Below are positions 36,570-50,329 of a DNA stretch of 64,000 nt, one piece after another. Source of the DNA: Rhodocyclaceae bacterium (lineage in GTDB: Bacteria; Pseudomonadota; Gammaproteobacteria; Burkholderiales; Rhodocyclaceae); contig VBWA01000011.1 in NCBI GenBank assembly GCA_006218025.1, positions 62,001 through 126,000 of the forward strand, written 5' to 3'. A program made the position numbers and the translations under genes. The stretch's first letter is position 1. Each line of letters opens with the position of its first letter. The notes beneath the pieces were generated by a model. It made no database searches, had not been told where the DNA came from, and saw only the letters and a list, made by a program, of their open reading frames with translations.

Positions 36570-37214
36570 GTGCCCGCAACGCTGCGCATCACCGAAATCT
36601 TTCACTCCATCCAGGGCGAATCGAGCCGCGTCGGGCTGCCGACGGTGTTTGTGCGGCTCACCGGCTGCCCCTTGCGCTGCGTCTGGTGCGATACCGAATA
36701 CGCTTTCAGCGGCGGCGAAACCCTGGCGATCAAGGACATCCTGCAGCGCGTCGCCAGGTTCGACTGCGCGACGGTCTGCGTCACCGGCGGCGAACCGCTG
36801 GCACAAAAACACTGCCTGACGCTGCTGGCCGCCCTGTGCGACGCCGGCCATTCGGTATCGATTGAAACCAGCGGCGCACTCGACATCGGCGGCGTCGATC
36901 CGCGCGTGGCGCGCATCATCGACCTCAAGGCGCCCGGCTCGGGAGAACAGGCGAAAAACCGCTGGGAAAATCTCGACCTGCTGACGGCCGGCGACGAGTT
37001 GAAGTTCGTTCTCGCCTCGCGCGGGGACTACGACTGGGCCGTATCGGCGTGTCGCCAGCGCCGACTTTTCGAGCGCTGCCCGGTGCTGTTCTCACCCGTG
37101 CAGGGGCAACTCGATCCGGCGCAGCTTGCGCAATGGATCATGGACGACCGCCTGCCGGTGCGCTTTCAGCTGCAGTTGCACAAAGTCCTCTGGAGCGACG
37201 CCAGGGGGCGTTGA
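36570..37214 (+). CDS. queE: 7-carboxy-7-deazaguanine synthase
   Basis: 214 aa radical SAM enzyme of queuosine precursor synthesis, converting 6-carboxytetrahydropterin to CDG. The start FHSIQGESSRVGLPTVFVRL and the cluster motif C-x3-C-x2-C in GCPLRCVWCDTEYAF are characteristic, followed by VTGGEPL and SIETSGALD. GTG start two bases after cpoB, in line with the frequent pal-cpoB-queE order. queC is not next to it. The C-terminal part contains a dispersed repeat (RQRRL). Confidence 0.95.
   Translation: MPATLRITEIFHSIQGESSRVGLPTVFVRLTGCPLRCVWCDTEYAFSGGETLAIKDILQRVARFDCATVCVTGGEPLAQKHCLTLLAALCDAGHSVSIETSGALDIGGVDPRVARIIDLKAPGSGEQAKNRWENLDLLTAGDELKFVLASRGDYDWAVSACRQRRLFERCPVLFSPVQGQLDPAQLAQWIMDDRLPVRFQLQLHKVLWSDARGR
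37045..37066 (-). repeat. Dispersed ~22-bp repeat, copy 6
   Basis: Core AGTCGGCGCTGGCG followed by ACACGCCG, minus strand, inside queE. The translated peptide is SACRQRRL, the same phase as in lolB. Confidence 0.65.
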
Positions 37215-37765: not shown

Positions 37766-39253
37766 CTACACCGCCGCGAACAGCACGCTGGCTGTCAGCC
37801 CTCGGGTGCCCGGTCCGTCAGTGAGCACAATGCGCGCGTTGTGCAATTCGACTATGCGCCGGCAGATCGCGAGGCCAAGGCCGGTGCCCGGTTGATCCTG
37901 GCCGGCGATGCGGTAGAAGCGCTCGAACACCGCCTTGCGTTGCGCTTCGGGAATGCCAGGACCATTGTCGCTGACCCGCATCAGCACGCCCGCCTCATCG
38001 CGGCGGATTGCGACATCGATGTGTCCGCCCGTCTGCGTGTAGCGGATGGCGTTGTCCACCAGGTTGCATAGCAGCATCGACAGCATGTCGGCATTCCCCG
38101 ACAGCGACGGCAAGTCCGGCTCAACCTGGAGTTCCAGTACCTGGTCGCGCCGCAGCGCCAAGGGTGCCAATTCCGCGCATACCGCTTCGGCGACATCGCC
38201 CGGGTTCACCGGCTGCACGTCCGGCAGTGCCTGTTCCGGATCGAGGCGGGCCAAGGTCAACAACTGGCCGACCAGGCGGATGCCGCGTTCGACTCCGCGC
38301 TGCAACTGATCCATGGCGCGCAGCCGTTCGGCGTCGCCGTCGGCACCCCGCGCCGCGTGCAACTGGGCCTGGATCGCCGCCAGCGGGGTGCGCAACTCGT
38401 GCGCGGCGTTGGCGGTGAATAGTCGTTCGCTCTCCAGGCTCTGCGTCATGCGCCGCAACAGCTTGTTCAACGCCAGAACCATCGGCCGCACTTCCCCCGG
38501 CGCACTGTCGGCATCGAGGGGTTCGAGGTTTTCGGCCTTCTTCTTCTCGATTTCGCGGGTGAGCGCACCGAGCGGGTCGAGGCCCCGGCTGATCGAATAC
38601 CAGAGCAGAAAAATCAGCACCGGCAGTCCCAGTGCCAGCGGGCTGACCAGGTGCAGGGCGATGCTGCGCACCAGTTGATTGCGCAGGTCGTGGGCTTCCG
38701 ACACCAGGATGCGAAAGTCATGATGCCTGTCCCAGACGCCGTAGTGGCGCCATTGCTGGCCCGCGTCGTCGGTGGACTCGGAAAACCCGTCGTGGGCGGT
38801 CATCACTTCGGCCGGCGCGTTGGCGGAGCGCAACAGCAAGAGCCCATCCCTGTTCCATATCTGGTAGCGCAGCCGCTTTTCGTATTCCACATGCAGGGAA
38901 TGCCTCGATCCCTTGCCCGGAACCATCGGGGCGGTGGCGGCATCGCCCGCGATTCCCAACGCCGATCTGGCGCTGGCCAGGCGCTCGGGCAGATCCGGCC
39001 ATTGCGTGAATATCTCCTTGAGCGCGGGCGCCTCGCTGCGGTTCGGGATCACCAGCGGGTCGTCGTCGTCCGGATCGGTGACGCGCAGCAGCGCCAGCCC
39101 GGTCTGGGCGAGATGGGCGTCGAAGAGTTCGTAGACGTCATCGACGCTGTCGCGGATGGTCATCCAGGCGATCACGGCCCAGTAGGCAAAGCTGACGATG
39201 AGCAGTCCGACCAGCAGCCGCTGGCTCAGGGACAGGCGGTGGCGGACGATCAC
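37766..39253 (-). CDS. QseC/TctE-like sensor histidine kinase
   Basis: 495 aa. Two membrane helices (about 12-33 and 205-227) flank a periplasmic sensor domain of the QseC type (RYQIWNRDGLLLLRSANAPAE). HisKA: FTANAAHELRTPLAAIQ with phospho-His. HATPase: LVDNAIRYTQTGG, VSDNGPGIPE, GTGLGLAICR. It overlaps the response-regulator gene by ATGA. The pair is divergent from cyc2, suggesting control of the cytochrome cluster. Confidence 0.9.
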   Translation of the reverse strand: MIVRHRLSLSQRLLVGLLIVSFAYWAVIAWMTIRDSVDDVYELFDAHLAQTGLALLRVTDPDDDDPLVIPNRSEAPALKEIFTQWPDLPERLASARSALGIAGDAATAPMVPGKGSRHSLHVEYEKRLRYQIWNRDGLLLLRSANAPAEVMTAHDGFSESTDDAGQQWRHYGVWDRHHDFRILVSEAHDLRNQLVRSIALHLVSPLALGLPVLIFLLWYSISRGLDPLGALTREIEKKKAENLEPLDADSAPGEVRPMVLALNKLLRRMTQSLESERLFTANAAHELRTPLAAIQAQLHAARGADGDAERLRAMDQLQRGVERGIRLVGQLLTLARLDPEQALPDVQPVNPGDVAEAVCAELAPLALRRDQVLELQVEPDLPSLSGNADMLSMLLCNLVDNAIRYTQTGGHIDVAIRRDEAGVLMRVSDNGPGIPEAQRKAVFERFYRIAGQDQPGTGLGLAICRRIVELHNARIVLTDGPGTRGLTASVLFAAV

Positions 39254-39915
39254 GAGGCGGATCTGGCGATGGTGTAACCAACGCCGCGCACGGTCTTGAT
39301 GCTCTCGGCACCAAGTTTGAGGCGCAGGTTGTGGATATGCACCTCGACGGCATTGCTGTCCACGTTGCGGTTCCAGCCGTAGATCGATGTCTCCAGTTGG
39401 CTGCGTGTCAGGATGCGGCCGGCGCTTTCCATGAGCGCCCGCAATACGGCGAATTCGCGGCCGGAAACCGGGATCGTGGGACCCTTCCGGGAGACGGTAT
39501 GGGCCACCAGATCCAGCGTCAGGTCGCCCACGCTGAGCGTCCCGCCGCCGCCCCGACCGGAACGGCGGACGAGGGCACGCAGGCGCGCCACCAGTTCTTC
39601 CATGTCGGCGGTCTTGGCCAGGTAATCGTCGGCGCCGCGATCCAGGCTGAGTACCTTGTCGCGCGTCGTGTCGCGCGCGGTGAGGATCAGGACGGGCAGG
39701 GTGTTGCCGCCGGCGCGCAGCTCGCGCAGCACCTCCGTGCCGTTCATGACGGGCAGGCCGATGTCCAGCACCATGGCGACGAATTCCCCCGTCTCCAGTG
39801 CGCCGAGCGCGGTCTTGCCATCCCTCACCCAGGTGACGGCAAAGCCCGCCTTGCAGAGCGCGGCGCGCAAGCCATCGCCGAGTAGCGGGTCATCCTCGAC
39901 AAGCAGCAGTTTCAT
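39250..39915 (-). CDS. OmpR/QseB-family response regulator
   Basis: 221 aa. The receiver has the acidic pair VEDD, phospho-Asp in VLDIGLP and Lys in DYLAKTADMEEL. The usual Lys-Pro-Phe after the conserved lysine is Lys-Thr-Ala, so the cis-proline is missing. The C-terminal winged helix is typical (RILTRSQLETSIYGWNRNVDSNAVEVHIHNLRLKLG). The ATG at 39915 follows GAGGAAAG; the frame is open to 39966. Probably binds the phased CTTAA boxes upstream of cyc2. Confidence 0.9.
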   Translation of the reverse strand: MKLLLVEDDPLLGDGLRAALCKAGFAVTWVRDGKTALGALETGEFVAMVLDIGLPVMNGTEVLRELRAGGNTLPVLILTARDTTRDKVLSLDRGADDYLAKTADMEELVARLRALVRRSGRGGGGTLSVGDLTLDLVAHTVSRKGPTIPVSGREFAVLRALMESAGRILTRSQLETSIYGWNRNVDSNAVEVHIHNLRLKLGAESIKTVRGVGYTIARSAS

Positions 39916-40074
39916 CTTTCCTCGCTCGCGGTTGCCCTTATCGACGTAAAGGATACTCCAGGCCATCCGGCCTGTCTCATAGGAAAAGCGCGCGCGTCAC
40001 CAATGAATGAACGCATTGGGTCTTGGTGCCCGCGAAACCGCACCGCCACAGGCGGCAGCGGCCTTCTGGTCATT

Positions 40075-40214: not shown

Positions 40215-41495
40215 ATGAAAATACGAGTTCTCTCGATGAAAAAGGCACTGCTCCTTCTCGCAGGTTTGCTGATGGCATTGGCACTTGTCCCGCAAGCGTC
40301 CGCGATGCCGTCGTTCGCACGACAGACCGGCAAGGCATGCAACACCTGCCACTTCCAGCACTATCCCACGCTCAACGCCTACGGCCAGGATTTCAAGGCC
40401 AGCGGCTATACCGACATGGGCAAGCAGGGCACCATCAAGGGCAAGGACATGTCCTTGCCCGAAGTGCTGAATCTCAGCGTGTTCACCAAAGTGCGCTACA
40501 TCAAAGACAACGGTACCGATATCGCGGGACAGCCGACGCGAGCCAGCGGCGAGTGGAATGTCCCCGACGAACTGGCCCTGCTCTCCGGCGGGCGCGTTGC
40601 GGAGGGTGTCGGTTACCTGCTGGAAATGCAGCTCGCCAACGCGGCCGCCGCCACAGTCGCCGGCTTCAAGATGCCCTTCATGTTCAAGGCGGGCGGTACC
40701 AGGCTCGGCGTAATCCCCTATACCACCGATACCCTGGGTGCCGCCTACGGCTTCGAACTGCTCGCAACCGGCGCGGTCCGCAACAACAAGGTGATGGAGT
40801 CGCGGACCGAGAGTTCCGCCCAGCAATACATCTTGACCGACGGCCCCGCCATGGGTGTCGCACTCGTCGCCGCGAATCCGCTGTTCTTCGCGAACTTCTC
40901 CAAGTGGTCGCCGAACCATGGCGCCTCCGCCAACGGCAACGTCAGTCGCAGTCCCACGTCCAACTATCTGCGCGCGGCTTTCACTCCGACGGTCGGCGAC
41001 TGGGAACTCGGCGTGGGATTCCAGTCATGGAGCGGAACGTCCAACCAAGGCGGCGCCGTTGTCACGACCTCGGTCCAGACCAAGGCGTTTTCAATCGATG
41101 CGCAAGTCCAGGGAACTCTCGGAAACATGCCGCTGGGCGTGTATTTCGCCAACGCCTCGGCGCCGGGAACCCCGCTTGGACTCCCTGCCGGAACGGCCGC
41201 CAACCTCTTCAACGCCAACCCCAACACGTCGAAGGCGACCACCCTTACCGGCGAACTGGGGGTGATTCCGAACAAGCTGACGCTCACCTTGGCTCAACGC
41301 AATGCGAACACCGGCGCCGCGTTGAACTCCACCGACAACGCCACGACGTTCGGTATCCGCTACGCCTATTCCCAGAATATCGGTTTGCAGCTGGAGCACA
41401 GCACGCGCAGCAAGAACGGCGTGGTCGGTCGCTATACCGGATCGCTGACTCCCGGCGGTGCCCGCACCATTTTGATGCTGTCCGCGGGCTTCTAG
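40215..41495 (+). CDS. cyc2: Cyc2-like fused cytochrome-porin (outer-membrane Fe(II) oxidase type)
   Basis: 426 aa. Signal peptide (LLLLAGLLMALALVPQASA) is followed at once by a short cytochrome domain, MPSFARQTGKACNTCHFQHYPTLNAYG, with one haem motif C42-N-T-C45-H46. The following segment FKASGYTDMG and an about 340-residue region with alternating hydrophobic strands ending in LMLSAGF predict a beta barrel. This N-terminal phrase, single CXXCH and overall length match Cyc2, which takes electrons from Fe(II) at the cell surface and passes them through the barrel. GAGG before the ATG at 40215 supports the start. A strong terminator follows 18 bp after the stop. Confidence 0.8.
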   Translation: MKIRVLSMKKALLLLAGLLMALALVPQASAMPSFARQTGKACNTCHFQHYPTLNAYGQDFKASGYTDMGKQGTIKGKDMSLPEVLNLSVFTKVRYIKDNGTDIAGQPTRASGEWNVPDELALLSGGRVAEGVGYLLEMQLANAAAATVAGFKMPFMFKAGGTRLGVIPYTTDTLGAAYGFELLATGAVRNNKVMESRTESSAQQYILTDGPAMGVALVAANPLFFANFSKWSPNHGASANGNVSRSPTSNYLRAAFTPTVGDWELGVGFQSWSGTSNQGGAVVTTSVQTKAFSIDAQVQGTLGNMPLGVYFANASAPGTPLGLPAGTAANLFNANPNTSKATTLTGELGVIPNKLTLTLAQRNANTGAALNSTDNATTFGIRYAYSQNIGLQLEHSTRSKNGVVGRYTGSLTPGGARTILMLSAGF

Positions 41496-41513
41496 AGCGA
41501 GCAGGGCGATTCA

Positions 41514-41543
41514 GGGGAAGGCCGCGAGGCTTTCCCCGTTTTT
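41514..41543 (+). terminator. Intrinsic terminator after cyc2
   Basis: GGGGAAGGCC and GGCTTTCCCC form a 10-bp stem (one G-U) closed by a GCGA tetraloop, followed by GTTTTT. It begins 18 bp after the cyc2 stop and would leave the downstream cytochromes with less transcript than cyc2. Confidence 0.75.
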
Positions 41544-41642
41544 CCCGATGACGCGCGATGCGCTGCCGGGAAGTCGCAGTGAAAGCGGACCCGCGCGCGG
41601 GAACAGCTTGCGCCGCCACCAGAACATGAGGAGAAACGCGGA

Positions 41643-42284
41643 ATGCGCCTGATACTCCACCGTATGCGCCGCAGCGGGCAGATAGCTCTTGCAGCTCTGA
41701 TTTCCGGCCTGCTGTTGTGTCCGGCCTGTGCCCTGGCGCAAGCCGTGCCGCTGCAGGAGCGGCTTCAACTTTGCGCCGCCTGCCACAGTCCGGATGGCAA
41801 CAGCCTGATCCCGGAGAACCCGAACCTGTCCGGTCTGGACCCCGACTACATCGTTCGCCAGCTGCATGACTTCAAGAGCGGCAACCGCAAGAGCGCGGTC
41901 ATGAGCGGAATCATTCCGATGGTCGACGAAAAGGAGTTCGCAGCCCTGGCGGAATTCTTCAGCAGGCAAAAACCAAATCCGGGCGGCAAGAGCGACGCCA
42001 AACTGGCGGCGCAGGGCAGGGAGATCTACGACGAGGGCATTGTCGGCAGCGCCGTGCCGGCCTGTTCGGGCTGCCACAATGACGATGGCAGCGGCACCGA
42101 CAAGTATCCCCGCATCGCCGGGCAGCATTCCGCTTACGTCGTCCAGCAGCTGCTGGGCTTCAAGAATGGCGAGCGTGCCAATGACGTCAAGGCGGTGATG
42201 CGCGCGGTGGCCAAGCGCATGAACGAAAAGGAAATCCGTGCGGTGGCGGAGTACGTGGTGACATTGAAGGGAGCACAAGAATGA
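41643..42284 (+). CDS. Diheme cytochrome c4-like protein
   Basis: 213 aa. Signal peptide (LAALISGLLLCPACALAQA) and two class I cytochrome c domains, each with CXXCH: CAACH (about residue 44) and CSGCH (about 141). Each domain has a distal methionine candidate (SGIIPMV, AVMRAVAKRM). The duplicated fold with about 95-residue spacing is that of cytochrome c4, a soluble or membrane-attached periplasmic carrier. GAGGAGAAA precedes the ATG. It overlaps the next cytochrome gene by four bases. Confidence 0.88.
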   Translation: MRLILHRMRRSGQIALAALISGLLLCPACALAQAVPLQERLQLCAACHSPDGNSLIPENPNLSGLDPDYIVRQLHDFKSGNRKSAVMSGIIPMVDEKEFAALAEFFSRQKPNPGGKSDAKLAAQGREIYDEGIVGSAVPACSGCHNDDGSGTDKYPRIAGQHSAYVVQQLLGFKNGERANDVKAVMRAVAKRMNEKEIRAVAEYVVTLKGAQE

Positions 42285-43009
42285 AGAATACCGTCGCCCT
42301 GTTCGTGACCCTGGCGTTGCTGCCGTGGCAGGCAGCATCGGCGGACATGGCCGATGCCGTCAAGAGCCCCAAGGGCTATGGCAGCAAGGACTACGTCTGG
42401 GGCAAGCTGCTGCCCGAACAGGTCGAGGTGCTCAGGCGCAGCGGCGATTTGGCGCGCGGCAAGGAGGCATTTCGCGGCTGTCGCGGCTGTCACAAGGCGG
42501 ATGCCGCCGGCGTGACCGACGGCACCTACCCTCGGCTGACCGGCCAGCACGCCAGCGTGGTCATCAAGCAGGTGACCGAGGTGCGCGGCGGCGTTCGCAT
42601 CAACCCCAAGATGGAGCCGTTCTCCGCCGAGCACGCGATATCGCCCCAGGAAATTGCCGATATTGCCGTGTTTCTGGAATCCGCAGAGACGACCCGCGAA
42701 AACGGCAAGGGCGAGGGCGATTTCGTGGCCAGGGGCAAGAAGCTCTATGAGCAGGGGAAATGCATGAAATGCCATGGCATCAACGGCGAGGGCAAGGCCG
42801 AGAAGGCCTATCCGGCGATCGCCGCGCAGCACTACGGTTACCTGAAGCGGGAAATGGATTACATCCAGCGCGGCGTCCGCGGCAACTCCCATCCCGACAT
42901 GGTCAAGGCGATAAGGCACTACAGCCATCGCGACATCGAAGCGATGGCCGACTACCTGTCGCGAATGCCCGATTACCGTCAATCTCTTGCTGAAAGGAAA
43001 GGCCAGTGA
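42281..43009 (+). CDS. Diheme c-type cytochrome
   Basis: 242 aa, signal peptide ending ASA. Haem sites CRGCH (about 67) and CMKCH (about 160), each followed by YPRLTGQHA and YPAIAAQHYGYLK type helices typical of c4/c5-type folds. A 45-residue N-terminal extension (VKSPKGYGSKDYVWGKLLPEQVEVL) is unlike plain c4 and may be a docking surface. Overlaps both neighbours by four bases, so it is one translational unit. Confidence 0.85.
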   Translation: MKNTVALFVTLALLPWQAASADMADAVKSPKGYGSKDYVWGKLLPEQVEVLRRSGDLARGKEAFRGCRGCHKADAAGVTDGTYPRLTGQHASVVIKQVTEVRGGVRINPKMEPFSAEHAISPQEIADIAVFLESAETTRENGKGEGDFVARGKKLYEQGKCMKCHGINGEGKAEKAYPAIAAQHYGYLKREMDYIQRGVRGNSHPDMVKAIRHYSHRDIEAMADYLSRMPDYRQSLAERKGQ

Positions 43010-43302
43010 AACGGTTGAACTGTGCCCTGATCGTGGGCTTGCTCGCCTCCCCCGCAGTGGCGGCCGATGGCAAGGCGGTCCATGACGCCGTCTGCTACAA
43101 GTGCCACCGCACAGGCGTAGACGACGCGCCCAAGACCGGTAACAAGGAGCACTGGGCGCCACGCCTGACGCAGGGCTTGCCGGCGCTCTACCAGGCGGTG
43201 CTGGAGGGCAAGGGGGCGATGGACCCGCGCGCCGGCAGGGAGGAGTTGACCGACGAGGAACTCAAGGCAGGCGTGGACTATCTGGTCGGACTGGTGAAAT
43301 AG
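43006..43302 (+). CDS. Monoheme cytochrome c5-like protein
   Basis: 98 aa. Signal peptide (LNCALIVGLLASPAVAA) and one haem motif CYKCH with a C-terminal region GAMDPRAGREELTDEELKAGVDYLVGLV. The MDPRAGR segment is the axial-Met loop of the cytochrome c5/c-555 group. A small periplasmic shuttle is the likely role. Overlaps the previous gene (ATGA). Confidence 0.88.
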   Translation: MKRLNCALIVGLLASPAVAADGKAVHDAVCYKCHRTGVDDAPKTGNKEHWAPRLTQGLPALYQAVLEGKGAMDPRAGREELTDEELKAGVDYLVGLVK

Positions 43303-43327
43303 GAATCTGCTGGAGCTACCCTGGAAA

Positions 43328-44347
43328 ATGACGATGCTGAGAATGACCCTGCCGGCCCTGACCGGTTTGCTGTTGCTGACGGCGGGATGCTCGCGCATGC
43401 CGTCTATCCCCAATCCGCTCGACCTGGTCGCCGGGCCATCGGTGCTGCGGGTCGAGCCGGCGCCGACGCCGGGAACGATACCGCTGCTGCGCAACGGTCA
43501 GACTCTCAGTCTGGCGGTGGCCGAGTTCACCGATGCGCGGCCGGGACCGCGCGGTCGCAAGATAGGCGACATCAAGGCCACGGTAACCAATATGCATGGC
43601 AGCGAAATGGCGCTGGACCAGGATGTGACAAGCACCTTGTCCACGGCGGCGCGAGGTCAGTTGGCGGCCGACGGCTTTCGCCTGGTCGGCGTCGGCGAGC
43701 CGGCCGATTTCCGTTTGAACGGAGTGATCAAGGCCTTTTCCCTGAACATTGGCGGGCGCGACGAACGCGTCATCGCAGTTGAAGCCACTGTGCGCGAAGG
43801 CAAGAGCGGTGACGTGATCTGGTCAGGCGTGATCGGCGAGACGGACGATCGCTACGCCGGAGTAACCGGCAACAGCCGTGCCACCATCACCGAGTATCTG
43901 GGCGAGGGTGTTGCCGCCTTTGCCGGCAAGCTTTCGGCTGCCGTCCGTGACAGTATCGCCAAGTCCTATCCGCGCACCATTGCGGCAGGCCAATCGAAGA
44001 ACATCTCGACCGTTCCCGGCGTCACGACGCTGCATGCCCCGGCGTCGCGCGACGAGCCGGTGGCGGGAGTTCGGGTTCCGGCCCCGATGGCGGCTCCCCT
44101 CGCCACTCCGCATCCGACACCGCCGGCCGCGGGTTCCGCTGTGGGCTACGTCTCGGTCTACAGCACGCCCGCGCGCGCCAAGGTGTATGTCGGCGACGTC
44201 TACTACGGCGTTGCGCCGATCAAGATCGAGTTGCCGATTGGCGTCGCCCGGTTCGGGTTCAGGCTCGACGGCCACAAGCCGGCAGCGGAAAAAGTCGCCG
44301 TGCGCCGCGGCGAGGTGACCGAACTAGAGGTGAAGCTGAACAAGTAG
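43328..44347 (+). CDS. YajG-like lipoprotein with C-terminal PEGA domain
   Basis: 339 aa. The lipobox LLTAGC gives a lipid-anchored protein. The middle (about 60-215) resembles the YajG lipoprotein family (LSLAVAEFTDARPG, VTNMHGSEMALDQDVTSTLSTAARGQLAADGFRLVG). The last about 70 residues are a PEGA domain (YVSVYSTPARAKVYVGDVYYGVAPIKIELPIG), often found in surface or envelope proteins. A proline/alanine linker joins them. No cofactor motif is seen. It may scaffold the cytochromes at the outer membrane. Confidence 0.65.
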   Translation: MTMLRMTLPALTGLLLLTAGCSRMPSIPNPLDLVAGPSVLRVEPAPTPGTIPLLRNGQTLSLAVAEFTDARPGPRGRKIGDIKATVTNMHGSEMALDQDVTSTLSTAARGQLAADGFRLVGVGEPADFRLNGVIKAFSLNIGGRDERVIAVEATVREGKSGDVIWSGVIGETDDRYAGVTGNSRATITEYLGEGVAAFAGKLSAAVRDSIAKSYPRTIAAGQSKNISTVPGVTTLHAPASRDEPVAGVRVPAPMAAPLATPHPTPPAAGSAVGYVSVYSTPARAKVYVGDVYYGVAPIKIELPIGVARFGFRLDGHKPAAEKVAVRRGEVTELEVKLNK

Positions 44348-44384
44348 CGCCGTCCCGCCAGCGCCGACTTTTCGGCGCTGGCGG
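44348..44384 (-). repeat. Dispersed ~22-bp repeat, copy 7, forming a hairpin
   Basis: Core AGTCGGCGCTGGCG followed by GGACGGCG (44348-44369, minus strand). A second inverted half-copy follows, so CCGCCAGCGCCGA (44355-44367) and TCGGCGCTGGCGG (44372-44384) make a 13-bp stem with a 4-nt loop. It lies just after the PEGA gene. No T-run follows, so termination is doubtful. Confidence 0.6.
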
Positions 44385-44455
44385 TTGCCTGCCGCCGCGC
44401 CATTCGCGGCAACGATCGAATGCAGCATCGGGCTGCATTCCGGATGCATGACGAC

Positions 44456-46900
44456 ATGAGCGAGCCCGTCACGATTGCGATCATCGGCGCCGGCCCCGGA
44501 GGGCTTTCGGCGGCAGCGCGCGCGGCCGCCCTTGGCGTGTCCCACGTCCTGCTGGAAGCCGCGCCACATATCGCCAATACCCTGCGCCGCTATCCAAGGG
44601 CCAAGCACGTCATGGCGGAACCCGCCGCACTGCCGCTCAGAAGCCCCTTGAGCTTCGCCGCCGGACCGCGCGAAACCGTTCTCGATACCTGGGATGATGA
44701 ACTGCGCCGGTGCGGCGTCAAGTTGCGCGTCGACGCGCGCGTGACGGCCATCGACGGCACACGCGGAGCCTTTCGCATTGCGCTGGCCTCGGGCGAAACC
44801 CTGACCGCAGCCTTTGTCGTTCTTGCCATCGGCTTGCAGGGCAACATCCGCCGGCTCGGCATGGCCGGGGAGAGTCTGCCGGGGGTGCAGTACCAGCTCG
44901 ACGATCCGGATGAGTACCAGGACGAAACCATCGTCGTCATCGGTGCCGGCGACGCGGGGATCGAGAACGCCATGGCTTTGACGCGGCACAACGAGGTCAT
45001 TCTCATCAACCGCGGCGAGGCCATCGTCGAGTGCGCGGAAGGCAACTTCAATGCGGCAATGGCGGCCCTTGAAAAGGGCGAGCTTGAGTGCCGGCATGGC
45101 ACGGTTGTCGAAGCCATCGAGGCGGGTGAAGCGGACGGGTTTCCCCTCAGAGTGATCGCCAACACGCCGCAGGGTGTGGAGAGGATTCGCTGTCATCGCG
45201 TCATCGCGCGCCTCGGCGCCGACCCGCCGCGCCAACTCATGGAGAGCTTCGGCATCGCCTTCCCCAACGCCGACCTCGATGCGCTGCCGCGACTCGGCGC
45301 CGAGGGAGAATCCAGCGTACCGGGCCTGTTCGTCGTCGGCGCGCTGGCCGGCTGTCCCCTGATCAAGCAGGCGATGAACCAGGGGCAGGACGCGATCGAC
45401 CGGATACTGGGCAGTCCGGTGGAACCGGTGGACGAGCCCATGCTCAAGGCAAAGCTCGCCGGATTCCGTCATGCGTCATCGGTCGCCGCGAGCCTGCTTG
45501 AAATACAGCGCGCGCTGCCCTTGTTCGCCGGGCTGTCCGCCGCCCAGTTGCGCGGCGTCCTGCTGGCGAGCACGGTCCGCGCGCCGCGTGCGGGGGAGGT
45601 CGTTTTCCAGCGCAACGATTACAGCACCTCGTTTTATTCCATTGTCGAAGGCGATGTTAGCGCTCATGTCCCGGACTGGGAAACAGACATTCAGCTCATC
45701 GCGGGAGACTTTTTCGGCGAAATGGGGCTGATCTCGGGGCGCCGCCGCTCGGCGACGATCACCGCGGGCGAAAACTGCACGCTGATCGAAACGCCGCGAC
45801 GCACCATGCTCAAACTACTGTCGGTCGAGTCGGTCCGTCGCCGCATCGACCAGGTTGCCATCCGGCGGGCGATACACCGCTACATCGGGCTTTTCCTGGA
45901 GGAACACGAACTTGACCATCTGGCGCGCAGTGCCCGCATCGAGCGCTATGAAGCAGGAGCGGTGCTGTTCCGCGAAGGGGACGAGGCCGACGGCCTGTAT
46001 TTGATCCGGCGTGGTTCGGTGACGGTTTCGCGCATGATCGGTGGCCGCGAAGTCGTGCTGTTCTATGCCGCAGCGGGCAGCTATGTCGGCGAAATGGCCC
46101 TGGTATCCGGCAAGCCACGCTACGCCACGGTCCGCGCGGTCGGCGGCAGCGAAGTCATCGTGCTCGATGCGGCGCATGTGGTATGGCTCGCGAGCCGGCA
46201 TCCCGACATGCGCCGGCAGATGGACGAGCGCTATTTCGACTACATGCAAGCCGGCGAAGAGGAACATCGACTGGCAACGGAGACGGACGCGGCGCGCGGC
46301 CAGCCGGAGAACCTGGTCGCCTTCCTGATGCAGCAGGGCATCGGCGAAGCCACCGACGTGTTGCTGATCGACCTGTCGCTGTGCATCCGCTGCGACAACT
46401 GCGAGACCGCGTGCGCCGAAACCCATCAAGGGTCGTCGCGCCTGAATCGCGAGGCGGGGCCGACCCTGGCCAACATCCACATCCCCGCCTCCTGCCGCCA
46501 CTGCGAACATCCGCACTGCATGAAGGACTGTCCGCCTGACGCCATTCACCGCTCGGTCGGAGGCGAAGTATTCATCGACGACAGTTGCATGGGTTGCGGC
46601 AATTGCATGACGAATTGTCCCTATGGGGTCATACGGATCGCGGCCGTCAACCTCGGCTACCGGCCCCCCAGTCTGTGGCGAACGCTGTTCGGCAGCGGCA
46701 CCGCAAGCGGGACCCCGCCCGATGGCGGCTGCATGCCGCCCAAGGCGGTCAAGTGCGACATGTGCAAGCAGCTCGCGGCGGGACCCGCCTGCGTGCGCGC
46801 CTGTCCCACCGGCGCCGCCCTGCGCGTCAGCCCGGAGGCCTTTCTGGAATACGCCAGACGCAAGGTCGACGACGGCGCGCGGCCGTCCCTGGCCGGATAG
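44456..46900 (+). CDS. FAD-NAD(P) oxidoreductase / two cNMP-binding domains / four-cluster ferredoxin fusion
   Basis: About 814 aa in one chain. Residues 1-330 form a TrxB-like flavoprotein (IIGAGPGGLSAAARAAALG, then VVIGAGDAGIENAMAL for the second nucleotide). Residues about 350-470 and 480-600 are two cyclic-nucleotide-binding/CRP-like beta rolls (GDFFGEMGLISGRRRSATI and GSYVGEMALVSGKPRYATV). Residues about 640-790 bind four [4Fe-4S] clusters (CX2CX2CX3C, CX2CX4CX3C, CX2CX2CX3C, CX2CX8CX3C), like NrfC/DmsB. No TM or signal is seen, so it should be cytoplasmic. It may move electrons between NAD(P)H or quinol and the haem proteins under second-messenger control. The start among three close ATGs is uncertain. 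Confidence 0.8.
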   Translation: MSEPVTIAIIGAGPGGLSAAARAAALGVSHVLLEAAPHIANTLRRYPRAKHVMAEPAALPLRSPLSFAAGPRETVLDTWDDELRRCGVKLRVDARVTAIDGTRGAFRIALASGETLTAAFVVLAIGLQGNIRRLGMAGESLPGVQYQLDDPDEYQDETIVVIGAGDAGIENAMALTRHNEVILINRGEAIVECAEGNFNAAMAALEKGELECRHGTVVEAIEAGEADGFPLRVIANTPQGVERIRCHRVIARLGADPPRQLMESFGIAFPNADLDALPRLGAEGESSVPGLFVVGALAGCPLIKQAMNQGQDAIDRILGSPVEPVDEPMLKAKLAGFRHASSVAASLLEIQRALPLFAGLSAAQLRGVLLASTVRAPRAGEVVFQRNDYSTSFYSIVEGDVSAHVPDWETDIQLIAGDFFGEMGLISGRRRSATITAGENCTLIETPRRTMLKLLSVESVRRRIDQVAIRRAIHRYIGLFLEEHELDHLARSARIERYEAGAVLFREGDEADGLYLIRRGSVTVSRMIGGREVVLFYAAAGSYVGEMALVSGKPRYATVRAVGGSEVIVLDAAHVVWLASRHPDMRRQMDERYFDYMQAGEEEHRLATETDAARGQPENLVAFLMQQGIGEATDVLLIDLSLCIRCDNCETACAETHQGSSRLNREAGPTLANIHIPASCRHCEHPHCMKDCPPDAIHRSVGGEVFIDDSCMGCGNCMTNCPYGVIRIAAVNLGYRPPSLWRTLFGSGTASGTPPDGGCMPPKAVKCDMCKQLAAGPACVRACPTGAALRVSPEAFLEYARRKVDDGARPSLAG

Positions 46901-46911
46901 GGGATATCCTC

Positions 46912-47742
46912 ATGCAGCGTCCCACCCTGCTCGGATTCAATCGCCATCGCCACCTCAAGGCGGCGGGCCTGCTGGTGGCCGTCGCCACGCTGGCCTACGC
47001 GCTTGACCGCCCGCCTGTTCCCTCCTACGGCGGCACCTGGCTGGGTTATGCGCTGGGCATCGTTGCCGCGCTGCTGGTGCTTCGCCAGCTGTGGCTGGGC
47101 GTTCGCCGGCGTCACCACGGCGGCAGCGGCAATCTGCAAGACTCGGTTTCGGCGCATGTCCATTTCGGCGCGGCGCTGGTGGTGCTGGCGACCCTGCATA
47201 GCGGCTTCCACCTTGGCTGGAACGTCCACACGCTGGCCTACCTGCTGCTGCTGGCGATGCTGGCCAGCGGGGTGTACGGCGTCTTTGCCTATCTGCGCGT
47301 TCCGCGCCAGATGACCGACAACCTGGGTGAGGAGGGCTTCGCGGACTTGCTGCTGAAGATCGCCGAACTCGACGAGCGTGCGCGCGCGCACGCGCTGTAT
47401 CTTCCCGACGAGCTGGGTGCCGTCGTGATGCGAGCGGTAACGCAGACGGTCGTTGGCGGCAAGGTCTTCCGGCAAATGAGCGGACGCCAGCCAGACTGTC
47501 CGACACGGGCAGCGGTACGCCGACTGCATGAAGCCGGCGACCCTCTGGACGCGGCTCAGTCGGCGCACCAGCGCGAGTTGTACTCGATCATGTTGCGCAA
47601 GGAATCGCTGCTGATCCGAGCGCGCAGGGATGTTGCATTCCGCGCCCGCCTCGGATTCTGGTTGTATCTCCATGCCCCGCTGGCCGTCGCCAGCGTCGCC
47701 GCGCTGGTGGCGCATATCGCGGCCACGCTGTTCTATCGTTGA
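46912..47742 (+). CDS. Polytopic membrane protein with haem-ligand-like histidines
   Basis: 276 aa, five hydrophobic helices: about 15-33, 42-62, 82-103, 108-130 and 245-268. Histidines cluster at helix ends: SAHVHFGAALVVLATLHSGFHLGWNVH and YLHAPLAVASVAALVAHI. This resembles b-haem cytochromes or ferric-reductase-like proteins, but I cannot confirm a family. A soluble loop (about 140-230) is charged. It begins 11 bp after the flavin/Fe-S fusion and ends 7 bp before the decaheme gene, so it is the likely membrane anchor linking the two. Confidence 0.6.
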   Translation: MQRPTLLGFNRHRHLKAAGLLVAVATLAYALDRPPVPSYGGTWLGYALGIVAALLVLRQLWLGVRRRHHGGSGNLQDSVSAHVHFGAALVVLATLHSGFHLGWNVHTLAYLLLLAMLASGVYGVFAYLRVPRQMTDNLGEEGFADLLLKIAELDERARAHALYLPDELGAVVMRAVTQTVVGGKVFRQMSGRQPDCPTRAAVRRLHEAGDPLDAAQSAHQRELYSIMLRKESLLIRARRDVAFRARLGFWLYLHAPLAVASVAALVAHIAATLFYR

Positions 47743-47749
47743 GCCGCCA

Positions 47750-49399
47750 ATGATTCGCTGCCTCCTCGTCCAGATCGCGCGCAACCGGCACGGCCACCCG
47801 ATCCGCTCCGAACGCCGCATCGCCGGCGATACGCTGCGCATCGGTCGCGGCGCGGAGTGCGCGCTCCATCTGCCGGATCATCGCGTCAAGCTGCGCCACG
47901 CGGTGATCAGGGGCGCCGAGGACGGGAAGTTCTACATTGCGGGAGAAGGGACGAGCATCGAGGTCGACGGTGGCTTCCATCAGGTCGCCGAACTGCGACC
48001 GGGGACCCGCGTGCCGATAGGCCCATACCGACTGATTGTTGAGGCCTCCAGCGACGATGGCGAACTCGTCATCTCGGTCGAACTCGTCCATCCGCGTCCG
48101 CCGGACGAGGCCATCCTGGCGCGGGCGCCCGCCAGTCTGGCCGCCGCCGGACTGTCCAAACGCCGGCCCGCGGTCTGGCTGGCAGCCCTGATCGGCCTGT
48201 TCTTCCTGCTGCTGCCCATCCTGCAGGCGACCAGCCCGGCGTTGCGCGAGGCGTTGGCGAGCATGCCGCTGACACCCCGGCAGACATGGAATCCGGGGCC
48301 GCTGATGGCGGGACACCAGACCTTTGCCGGACAATGCGACACATGCCATCGGCGACCTTTTGAACCGGTCCCCGACCATGCGTGCGAAAGCTGTCATCGC
48401 GGCACGGCTGCGCACTCGTCCGCGTCGGCCGCCGTGGTCCGGCGCTGCGCCGAATGCCATCGCGATCACAAGGGCGCGAGCGGACTGGTGCGAGGCGACC
48501 GGCCGCTATGCATTTCGTGTCACGAAGCGGTCAGGGAACGCGATGCGACATCCGTGTTGGCGAACGTCGATGGCTTCGACAGCGATCATCCGCCCTTCCG
48601 TCTGACGCTCAAGTCCGGTGCTGGGCAGGATCGCCCGCGACGAAATTCCCAGTCCGCCAAAACAGCGCCGACGGAGAACTCCGGGCTCAGGTTTTCGCAT
48701 CGGGCGCATCAGGGAAAACTGCGCCTGCCCAGCGACCCGCGACTATTCCGCACCATGGATTGCGGCGATTGTCACCAAGTGGACAGTGGGGATTTGCGCT
48801 TCAGGCCGGTGACGATGAAGGGCCACTGCTTCGAGTGCCACAAGGAAGCATTCGACTTCAATCCGCCGCTGGACGGGCACCGTTTGCCCCATGGCTCGGA
48901 ACGCGCGGTGATGGATGCCCTCGAGAATTTCCACCTGAAGAAGATCCTGGCCGAAGCCGCGCTGCGCGGCGGCCGCGCAGCGGCTGGCGGTATCCCGCTG
49001 CAACAGGCGCTCGACACCGCTGCCGCAAGGGCGCGCAAGGCGGTGGCGGCGCTGGCCGGCGAGATGGGCTGCGGCTTGTGTCATGAGACCAAAGCGGCCG
49101 ACGAAACCAGCGCCGTGCCTTGGACCATCCAGCGGGTGACCGTTACTGAACACTGGCTGCCGGCGGCGCGATTCAGCCATGAAAAGCACCGCGTCGGCAA
49201 GTGTGCGGACTGTCACGCCGTGAGTCACTCGGATCGTAGCGCCGACATTGCGATCCCGGATATCGAAATGTGCCGCCAATGCCATTCCGGCGAACGCCCG
49301 GCAGGCGGCAAGATCGCCAGTCCCTGCGCTTCCTGTCACCGATTCCACCAGCCCGTTGCCGCCCTGCCCGACCCTGTACTCAGCCATCGGCGGGGATGA
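47750..49399 (+). CDS. FHA domain - membrane helix - decaheme c-type cytochrome
   Basis: 549 aa. Residues about 15-105 are FHA-like (DTLRIGRGAECALHLPDHRVKLRHAVI). The usual SxxH Ser is Lys here and the NG motif reads GTSIEVDG, so phosphothreonine binding may be lost. One helix (about 137-160, WLAALIGLFFLLLPIL) places the rest in the periplasm. That part has ten CXXCH sites: CDTCH, CESCH, CAECH, CISCH, CGDCH, CFECH, CGLCH, CADCH, CRQCH, CASCH, many followed by distal-type His. It could relay electrons between the membrane partner and the periplasmic cytochromes. Confidence 0.82.
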   Translation: MIRCLLVQIARNRHGHPIRSERRIAGDTLRIGRGAECALHLPDHRVKLRHAVIRGAEDGKFYIAGEGTSIEVDGGFHQVAELRPGTRVPIGPYRLIVEASSDDGELVISVELVHPRPPDEAILARAPASLAAAGLSKRRPAVWLAALIGLFFLLLPILQATSPALREALASMPLTPRQTWNPGPLMAGHQTFAGQCDTCHRRPFEPVPDHACESCHRGTAAHSSASAAVVRRCAECHRDHKGASGLVRGDRPLCISCHEAVRERDATSVLANVDGFDSDHPPFRLTLKSGAGQDRPRRNSQSAKTAPTENSGLRFSHRAHQGKLRLPSDPRLFRTMDCGDCHQVDSGDLRFRPVTMKGHCFECHKEAFDFNPPLDGHRLPHGSERAVMDALENFHLKKILAEAALRGGRAAAGGIPLQQALDTAAARARKAVAALAGEMGCGLCHETKAADETSAVPWTIQRVTVTEHWLPAARFSHEKHRVGKCADCHAVSHSDRSADIAIPDIEMCRQCHSGERPAGGKIASPCASCHRFHQPVAALPDPVLSHRRG

Positions 49400-49405
49400 C
49401 TCGCA

Positions 49406-50329
49406 TCACGGTTCGGCCGGCCCCTGAGGCGTCGGCAATGCAGGCCCGCACGGCACTCGATCGAGTCGCCAGTGCGCTTGCGCCCAGATCCAGAGTTCAC
49501 TCACAGCCGCGCCCAACAACTCCGGCGGCGGCCGCTGGCCGAGAAACTCCAGCGCGGCATACAGGGCGGGGCCGGGTCGTGAGATGTCCACGGGCGCTGC
49601 GAGGGTCTGCTTCGACAGCTTCTCGCGCTCGGCATTGACCGCCACCGGCAAGTGCGCATAGTCCGGCGTGGGCACGCCAAGACACTGCTGCAGAAAGATC
49701 TGGCGCGATGTCGAGGCCAGCAGATCGGCGCCGCGCACGACATGGGTGATTCCGGCCTCGGCATCGTCGACCACCACCGCCAGCTGGTAGGCAAACAGGC
49801 CGTCGGCGCGCAGAAGGATGAAGTCGCCCGCGTCGCGGGCCAGATCGCTGACGATGCGTCCCTGGATCGCATCGTCGAAGCTCACCCTGGCATCGCGCAC
49901 CCTCAGTCGCCAGGCGCGTGCGGTGCGTCCTGGAGCGAGCCCGGCGCGGCACGTGCCCGGATAAATCGCCGCGCCGTCGGGCGCAATGGCCGAATCGGCG
50001 AGCTCGCGGCGCGTGCAGGCGCAGGGAAACACCCGGCCCGCCGCCTTGAGCCTCTCCAGCGCCGCTGCATAGGCTTCGCCGCGGCGGCTTTGCCAGACTA
50101 TCTCGCCGTCCCAGGCAAAGCCGAAGGCCTCAAGTGCACGCAGGATTTCGCCCGCCGCGGCCGCAATGCAGCGCGGGGCGTCGACATCTTCCATGCGCAG
50201 GTGCCACTCGCCATACCGGGTCCTCGCCTCCAGAAACGAGCCAACCGCTGCCACCAGGGAACCAAAGTGCAGCGGGCCCGTGGGCGATGGCGCAAAGCGT
50301 CCGCGATAGGACAATGCTGGAGTCGTCAT
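49406..50329 (-). CDS. gluQ: Glutamyl-Q tRNA(Asp) synthetase
   Basis: 307 aa. GluRS paralogue without the anticodon-binding domain: SPTGPLHFGSL is the HIGH-like motif, and REKLSKQ the KMSKS-like one. It makes glutamyl-queuosine on tRNA-Asp, using the queuosine made with QueE. The start at 50329 (MTTPALSYRGRFAPS) is preferred over the ATG at 50347 because the family begins just before YRGRFAPSPTG. Confidence 0.94.
   Translation of the reverse strand: MTTPALSYRGRFAPSPTGPLHFGSLVAAVGSFLEARTRYGEWHLRMEDVDAPRCIAAAAGEILRALEAFGFAWDGEIVWQSRRGEAYAAALERLKAAGRVFPCACTRRELADSAIAPDGAAIYPGTCRAGLAPGRTARAWRLRVRDARVSFDDAIQGRIVSDLARDAGDFILLRADGLFAYQLAVVVDDAEAGITHVVRGADLLASTSRQIFLQQCLGVPTPDYAHLPVAVNAEREKLSKQTLAAPVDISRPGPALYAALEFLGQRPPPELLGAAVSELWIWAQAHWRLDRVPCGPALPTPQGPAEP

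Follow-up and report, generated by a model that had tools for sequence, protein, structure and literature searches.

A 64,000-nucleotide stretch of the genome of a Rhodocyclaceae bacterium (positions 62001-126000 of contig VBWA01000011.1; the whole stretch is called the window below) carries an operon for the outer-membrane cytochrome-porin Cyc2 and, next to it, genes whose content matches the inner-membrane core of PCC4, a putative porin-cytochrome cluster (He et al., 2017; main text of PMC5566968). The parts are of known kinds; judged from gene content it is their pairing that is unusual, and a literature search in one library found no publication on Cyc2 next to a PCC4-type core. The eight genes lie on the plus strand of 40215-49399 and, from the way they are distributed among genomes, are two units: unit A (40215-44347), cyc2 with its periplasmic carriers, and unit B (44456-49399), the core. 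We favor, at a probability a little under one half (about 0.47), the reading that these are adjacent, separately inherited units that cooperate, unit B being a modular adaptor regulated by cyclic nucleotide monophosphates (cNMP) whose partner here would be Cyc2. Gene content, cofactor residues, separate inheritance and the recurrence of other conduits next to unit B or its flavoprotein can be read from the sequences themselves. Domain assignments for the window proteins are Pfam and NCBIfam profile matches.

40215-41495, plus strand: cyc2, fused monoheme cytochrome-porin, 426 aa (motif, one CXXCH, predicted porin barrel)
41643-42284, plus strand: diheme c-type cytochrome, c4-like, 213 aa (PF00034, 5.6e-14)
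42281-43009, plus strand: diheme c-type cytochrome, c4-like, 242 aa (PF00034, 1.7e-18)
43006-43302, plus strand: monoheme c-type cytochrome, c5-like by size, 98 aa (PF13442, 7.2e-11)
43328-44347, plus strand: PEGA-domain lipoprotein, 339 aa (PF08308, 1.8e-9; lipobox-like LLTAGC)
44355-44384, plus strand: perfect 13-bp hairpin without T-run, between units A and B (fold of 44340-44410)
44456-46900, plus strand: FAD/NAD(P)-type flavoprotein with two cNMP-binding domains and a 16-Cys HycB-like ferredoxin domain, 814 aa (Pfam)
46912-47742, plus strand: inner-membrane protein (IMP) with two HX13H motifs, PCC4-IMP-like, predicted diheme b, 276 aa (histidine pattern)
47750-49399, plus strand: protein with FHA-like N-terminus (PF00498, 5.2e-5), one hydrophobic segment (by eye) and decaheme domain (PF14522, 6.1e-13), 549 aa

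The gaps between these genes measure 147, 25, 108, 11 and 7 nt, and the three cytochrome genes overlap by 4 nt each; all features that the initial annotation had placed on one strand of this region, the overlaps included, are indeed there. The hairpin sits inside the 108-nt gap between the PEGA and flavoprotein genes, and the stretch 44340-44410 folds at -44.8 kcal/mol (z -4.94).

Cyc2 and its periplasmic carriers

The Cyc2 motif of the window (AMPSFARQT..CNTCH-x4-PTL, AMPSFARQTGKACNTCHFQHYPTL) agrees with the signature given in the part of PMC8406198 drawn on here, namely AXPXFAR[Q/K][T/Y], CXXCH, and PXL four residues after, and the pattern A.P.FAR[QK]..CXXCH-x4-PxL is also present in the strong relatives and absent from the weak ones. 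An AlphaFold model from a 17-row alignment has 19 strands and a mean predicted local distance difference test score (pLDDT) of 75.2, with residues 19-51 below 50 and the heme end poor; its top Foldseek matches in the PDB are porins (best E 2.7e-11). The protein is 35-62% identical to 16 aligned relatives and aligns over its full length with Gallionellaceae homologues. It is likely an outer-membrane beta-barrel fused to one heme domain, with iron oxidation as its predicted activity.

The order of unit A is kept, by tblastn, in G041 of the window's family, in a Sulfurisoma genome (G441) and in G132, where it lies on the strand opposite to unit B. A further family member, G066, has the set with the monoheme match absent, and a Sideroxydans genome (G446) has cyc2-c4-c4 twice. 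The literature search found no paper that names cyc2 and a PEGA domain together.

The inner-membrane core

From its N-terminus, the unit B flavoprotein consists of a FAD/NAD(P) fold (PF07992, 2e-25), two cNMP domains (PF00027, twice, 2.8e-36) and the ferredoxin domain (PF13247, 1.7e-8; 35 bits versus a cut-off of 26.2). Its alignment has 80 rows, made up of the window, 75 of 80 named loci (one twice) and three further genomes, five of the named loci being without a flavoprotein row in the tree. All 16 cluster cysteines are invariant in the 80 rows, and four [4Fe-4S] clusters are predicted. Both phosphate-binding cassettes keep their Glu in 80 of 80 rows and their Arg in 80 and 79, respectively; we take these to be the nucleotide-binding residues. 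Where thioredoxin reductases have CXXC the flavoprotein reads YQLDDP, so no dithiol would be expected.

That both cNMP sites are intact is suggestive of gating of the cytoplasmic arm by cAMP or cGMP, and a cyclic-nucleotide messenger is plausible because the window's own genome (4.44 Mb) has seven class III cyclase matches. In one locus (L028:9792-10904) a response regulator and a class III cyclase-like gene stand directly upstream of the flavoprotein gene, on the same strand. This could not be extended to a general cyclase link, as a query with the L028 cyclase matches only 6 of 101 stretches (L028, L043, L044, L045, L047 and L120) and the arrangement looks operonic in L028 alone. The iron-oxidizer papers and the He et al. 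text that were checked for "cyclic" or "cyclic nucleotide" do not mention them, the main text of PMC5566968 having 0 occurrences of "cyclic" and 0 of "FHA".

The membrane protein has no Pfam or NCBIfam match, and its assignment comes from its histidines. In rows drawn from 52 cluster members, those shorter than 260 aa being omitted, His82 and His96 (x13) are kept in 50 of 50, His254 and His268 (x13) in 49, and His106 in 49. An SGXXG motif is present as S119-G120-x-x-G123. The first WX3HX13H has Ser78 in the window in place of the Trp found in 47 of the 50 rows, and the second keeps Trp250. An AlphaFold model (mean pLDDT 88.4) has helices at 13-31, 43-68, 75-97, 105-138 and the end of 214-275, as read from the model, and these could fit the five transmembrane helices that the main text of PMC5566968 gives for the PCC4 membrane protein. 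For that protein the text also proposes two b hemes and a contact with quinone.

The decaheme protein of the window has 10 CXXCH motifs, and among 49 members of its cluster (63 before those shorter than 450 aa were omitted) 36 have 10 and 13 have nine. FHA domains bind phosphothreonine through a Gly, an Arg, a Ser and a His; in the FHA-like domain Gly32 and Arg33 are present in all 49 rows and His50 in 46. A canonical phosphothreonine reading is doubtful, since the Ser position is occupied by Ser in only nine of the 49 rows and the window has Lys there; docking of the complex is the more probable role. Chance does not account for any of the three proteins of this second half: roughly 50 to 80 homologues align to each of them, and the cofactor residues do not vary. 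A search of viral contigs yielded no relatives.

Separate inheritance of the two units

Loci were mapped with tblastn and a codon-scored gene caller, which still miscalls some genes, such as the membrane-protein gene of the window. The samples were 150 genomes of the window's family, 300 of its order, 150 of Gallionellaceae type (the family of G261) and the 80 named loci. The flavoprotein (E <= 1e-60) occurs in 3/150, 21/300 (own genome counted in both) and 24/150 of the three genome samples. Cyc2 (E <= 1e-40) is found in four genomes of the window's family, two of which have both (Fisher p 0.0016 with the own genome counted, 0.04 without it). Units A and B were found adjacent in only two genomes, that of the window and G132, where they stand tail to tail on opposite strands; G041 and G066 carry unit A without unit B, and both are missing from the other same-genus genomes sampled (3/3).

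The initial annotation had named, as a finding that would speak against it, that 44456-49399 be apart from cyc2 in most genomes and tied to another pathway. The first part is what we observe. Among the Gallionellaceae-type genomes with both Cyc2 and unit B, these are apart in 22 of 22, two at a distance (1.28 Mb in G564 and 89 kb in G611) and 20 on different contigs, where proximity across a contig break is possible. In the named loci, Cyc2 lies beside unit B in none of 80 (tblastn, two Cyc2 queries, E <= 1e-7; a diverged Cyc2 would escape). The second part holds only to the extent that unit B is tied to several outer conduits, and not to one other pathway. A strong Cyc2 match (E <= 1e-30) anywhere in the genome is found for 13 of the 48 first-searched loci and 0 of the other 32, weaker matches (5/48 and 6/32), mostly to the heme end, being excluded from this count. 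All 13 fall in a 35-row clade with the window (support of 99 in the Shimodaira-Hasegawa-like approximate likelihood ratio test, SH-aLRT; quick tree), and nested in this clade is the 17-row Methylotenera-type clade, with 0 of 17. The named row closest to the window is Sulfurisoma L048 (SH-aLRT 99), and the unit A set is found in its genome too. From these distributions, the two units are inherited separately.

In G126 of the window's family and in Methylotenera genomes alike, unit B lies near one and the same rlmB-like and rnr-like gene pair (coordinates L028:222-4521 and L078:16871-20121). The record titles of L060, L062, L066, L067, L126 and L079, several of them Bordetella parapertussis, Klebsiella pneumoniae or Mycobacteriaceae, clash with the tree placement; these assemblies look mislabeled and were not used as taxonomy.

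Conduits beside unit B and in the window's own genome

An LVIVD- or PCC4-type conduit gene adjoins the flavoprotein gene in 41 of the 80 named loci, and in 42 with L051 added. Within the 41, there are 34 with an LVIVD-type decaheme or porin, two (L111 and L126) with PCC4 5-heme and porin genes, and five with a tetraheme only. Of these stretches, 13 include the membrane-protein gene, 15 show the decaheme running up to the border of the fetched sequence, and 13 contain neither, so that the latter 28 do not display unit B as a whole. When at least 5 kb was available on both sides (38 loci), a conduit was present in 20, and none of these conduit genes in 18. The 38 loci outside the 42 comprise these 18 and 20 with less than 5 kb on at least one side, where absence is undecided.

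Loci were equated with PCC4 by gene content and not by sequence. L111 has a 5-heme, a porin-like and two tetraheme genes, then the flavoprotein, membrane protein and decaheme; L126 shows a PCC4-like set as far as the membrane-protein gene, where the stretch ends, and L042 and L046, outside the 80 named loci, have the full PCC4-like set. Downstream of unit B in a metagenome-assembled genome of Gallionellales (L051:15979-22153) lie MtrA-, MtrB/PioB- and OmcA/MtrC-family genes, all above NCBIfam cut-offs. A porin-cytochrome-like cluster recurs beside unit B or the flavoprotein in L050, L055, L066, L108, L125 and others. The parts of this LVIVD cluster are an HbpS-like protein (26 loci, by Pfam in one), a beta-barrel-like protein (24 loci; the single one examined has SH3 domains), a decaheme of about 1250 aa (30 loci) and a tetraheme. 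LVIVD repeats were present in 5 of 6 decahemes checked, the sixth (L108) being cut by the end of its stretch, and LVIVD does not occur in the papers text-searched for that word. A monoheme cytochrome stands near unit B in 12 loci, mostly of Gallionellaceae and in 11 of 12 on the opposite strand (for example L064:9326-9745; DUF1924 in the one checked). In L031 (3-19999) and L054, two copies of a decaheme-tetraheme-flavoprotein cluster point toward one another on the same contig, and each has a related protein of about 820 aa after it.

In the window's own genome we found no PCC4/LVIVD tetraheme by alignment search; 32 other genomes, including two that are not unit B carriers (G085 and G111), gave none, and the control G330 was recovered (1/34). 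The DmsE/MtoA-family decaheme model (TIGR03508) had no match in the own genome at E <= 1e-5, while a search of 12 genomes gave matches in seven, four of them above cut-off. The sole own-genome match of the doubled-CXXCH family is the unit B decaheme. PCC4-type porin and 5-heme genes were sought within the window with the L042 proteins (tblastn, E <= 1e-3), the rest of the genome lying outside this search, and none was found; the window has no PCC4-type 4-heme gene either. Cyc2 is thus the only outer-membrane conduit found, the search not extending genome-wide to PCC3-type and PCC4 5-heme cytochromes, and this is the main argument for cooperation between A and B. G132, unlike the own genome, has DmsE-type decahemes; beside its cyc2 there is a NapC/NirT-like tetraheme of 223 aa (282.7 bits versus a cut-off of 310.6).

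Electron flow and alternative readings

We infer the heme b content, the order of the carriers, the gating, the cooperation of the units, their function and the direction of flow as follows. Cyc2 would accept electrons at the surface from Fe(II) or another donor, and the c4/c5-type carriers of unit A would relay them into the periplasm. There the membrane-anchored decaheme of unit B would exchange electrons with the periplasmic pool, and the membrane protein, with its two predicted b hemes, would move them across the membrane and could meet quinone. In a cytoplasmic branch, the Fe-S clusters and FAD of the flavoprotein would exchange electrons with NAD(P)H. With a potential of about -0.32 V, NAD(P) lies below the Fe(II)/Fe(III) couples at neutral pH, so this branch would be downhill only outward; with Fe(II) present, electrons would mostly end at the quinone level. 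We would therefore expect unit B, under cyclic-nucleotide gating, to set the redox balance between the periplasm on one side and quinone and NAD(P)H on the other. The evidence does not support a complex dedicated to passing electrons from Fe(II) to NAD(P).

The eight genes had been proposed to supply, together, every step from Fe(II) to NAD(P) or quinone. What stands of this is a Cyc2 conduit and an inner-membrane redox core tied by comparison to trans-envelope conduits; that they make one complex is not supported. It seems to us unlikely that the genes are co-transcribed as one dedicated conduit by which Cyc2 passes electrons of Fe(II) on to NAD(P) or quinone, even though they share a strand, short gaps and 4-nt overlaps, are also adjacent in G132 as units, and come from a genome where the searches made found no second outer conduit. 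Three findings weaken the single-operon reading: the units are on opposite strands in G132, a strong hairpin separates the two halves, and the units are distributed separately, unit A occurring without unit B in G041 and G066, and 67 of the 80 named genomes having unit B but no strong match to Cyc2. In addition, moving electrons from Fe(II) to NAD(P) would be uphill, and we see no pump among the genes that could be coupled to it. Possible, if rather doubtful, is that unit B is a passenger with another job, such as releasing surplus electrons from NAD(P)H or quinol into the periplasm, and that its adjacency to cyc2 is accidental. Outward flow from NAD(P)H would be downhill, and no such conduit gene stands beside unit B in G126 or in 18 of the 38 well-flanked named loci. 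An accident is harder to reconcile with the adjacency of the units in two genera, the repeated pairing with surface conduits, and the absence of both units from all three same-genus genomes, which suggests joint gain. Finally, the flavin/cNMP protein could serve chiefly to sense redox state or cyclic nucleotides on behalf of the membrane cytochromes and not to carry electrons, which we regard as very improbable: its cNMP sites are intact in 79-80 of 80 rows and a cyclase-like gene lies directly upstream in L028, but the 16 cluster cysteines and both dinucleotide folds are conserved as strictly as these sites, and the domain scan saw no output domain.

Several observations weigh against the cooperation of two separately inherited units that we favor. 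Unit B does not need Cyc2, as it occurs without it in the Methylotenera-type clade, where 17 of 17 rows have no strong Cyc2 match and no conduit in view, and in G126, where Cyc2 has no match; Methylotenera, Duganella and Lysobacter-type genomes likewise carry unit B or the flavoprotein without a strong Cyc2 match, which also suits a passenger. In the Gallionellaceae-type genomes Cyc2 (E <= 1e-20) accompanies unit B in 22 of 24 cases versus 88 of 126 genomes without unit B, a weak co-occurrence (p 0.025, kinship uncorrected) in a group where Cyc2 is common anyway (110/150). An independent-pairs test on the flavoprotein tree was uninformative, Cyc2 differing in 0 of 5 pairs, and the tree itself is a quick one in which the window row is long-branched and of odd composition. 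The searches for other conduits can overlook diverged ones. The membrane protein has no Foldseek match in the PDB at E <= 0.001, and with no credible fold match its predicted diheme-b nature rests on the histidine pattern and on the discussion by He et al.

A wider, more tentative possibility, which we consider doubtful as it stands, is that unit B is a conduit-independent adaptor, gated by cyclic nucleotides, that links NAD(P)H and quinone to at least four conduits (Cyc2, MtrCAB, PCC4-type and LVIVD-decaheme); electron exchange at the surface would then be switched by cAMP or cGMP. The route of Cyc2 electrons to the inner membrane in neutral-pH iron oxidizers is unsettled, and unit B is a testable candidate partner, with cNMP sites that suggest a regulatory layer. 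More generally, our comparison speaks for viewing such clusters as an adaptor with interchangeable conduits and not as fixed complexes.

Neighboring genes

Directly before cyc2 a two-component pair (37766-39966) occupies the minus strand, and a hairpin follows cyc2.

37766-39253, minus strand: sensor histidine kinase, partner of the response regulator (domain match)
39250-39966, minus strand: OmpR-type response regulator, divergent from cyc2 (domain match)
41514-41537, plus strand: terminator-like hairpin with T-rich tail, directly 3' of cyc2 (z -2.43 for 41490-41560)

By its position the response regulator may control cyc2, and homologues of the pair occur near cyc2-like genes in 6 of 21 loci. 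Terminator-like sites number 9 versus 7.5 expected, which lends weak support to the hairpin. The flanking genes are ordinary: from their translations we take the one at 36570 to be queE-like, and that at 49406 to encode a glutamyl-Q tRNA-Asp synthetase-like protein.

Comparison with known systems

The initial annotation knew of no described complex with this set, yet the core corresponds to the inner-membrane part of PCC4, for which the main text of PMC5566968 gives a porin, 4-, 5- and 10-heme cytochromes, and a membrane protein in which WX3HX13H occurs twice alongside SGXXG; subgroup II has in addition a pfam13247 Fe-S gene ahead of the membrane-protein gene. Unit B shares with this subgroup the 10-heme cytochrome, the two HX13H motifs, SGXXG and a pfam13247 gene, here 11 nt upstream. 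It differs in that the porin, 4-heme and 5-heme genes are missing from the window, a Cyc2 unit adjoins, and the first Trp is Ser. With the Cyc2 of neutrophilic iron oxidizers, as described in the part of PMC8406198 drawn on here, the window protein has in common the motif, the single heme and the porin barrel, whereas it carries its own c4-c4-c5-PEGA set. MtrCAB and MtoAB are likewise trans-envelope conduits in need of an inner-membrane partner, and unit B homologues adjoin one in L051; unlike them, the own genome has no DmsE/MtoA-family decaheme that our search could find. The AegA/YgfT and HycB-type Fe-S oxidoreductases also join a polyferredoxin to a FAD/NAD(P) module (NCBIfam matches far below cut-off), but in the unit B flavoprotein the order is reversed and two cNMP domains stand between, and its flavin part is YpdA/thioredoxin-reductase-like without CXXC at the expected position.

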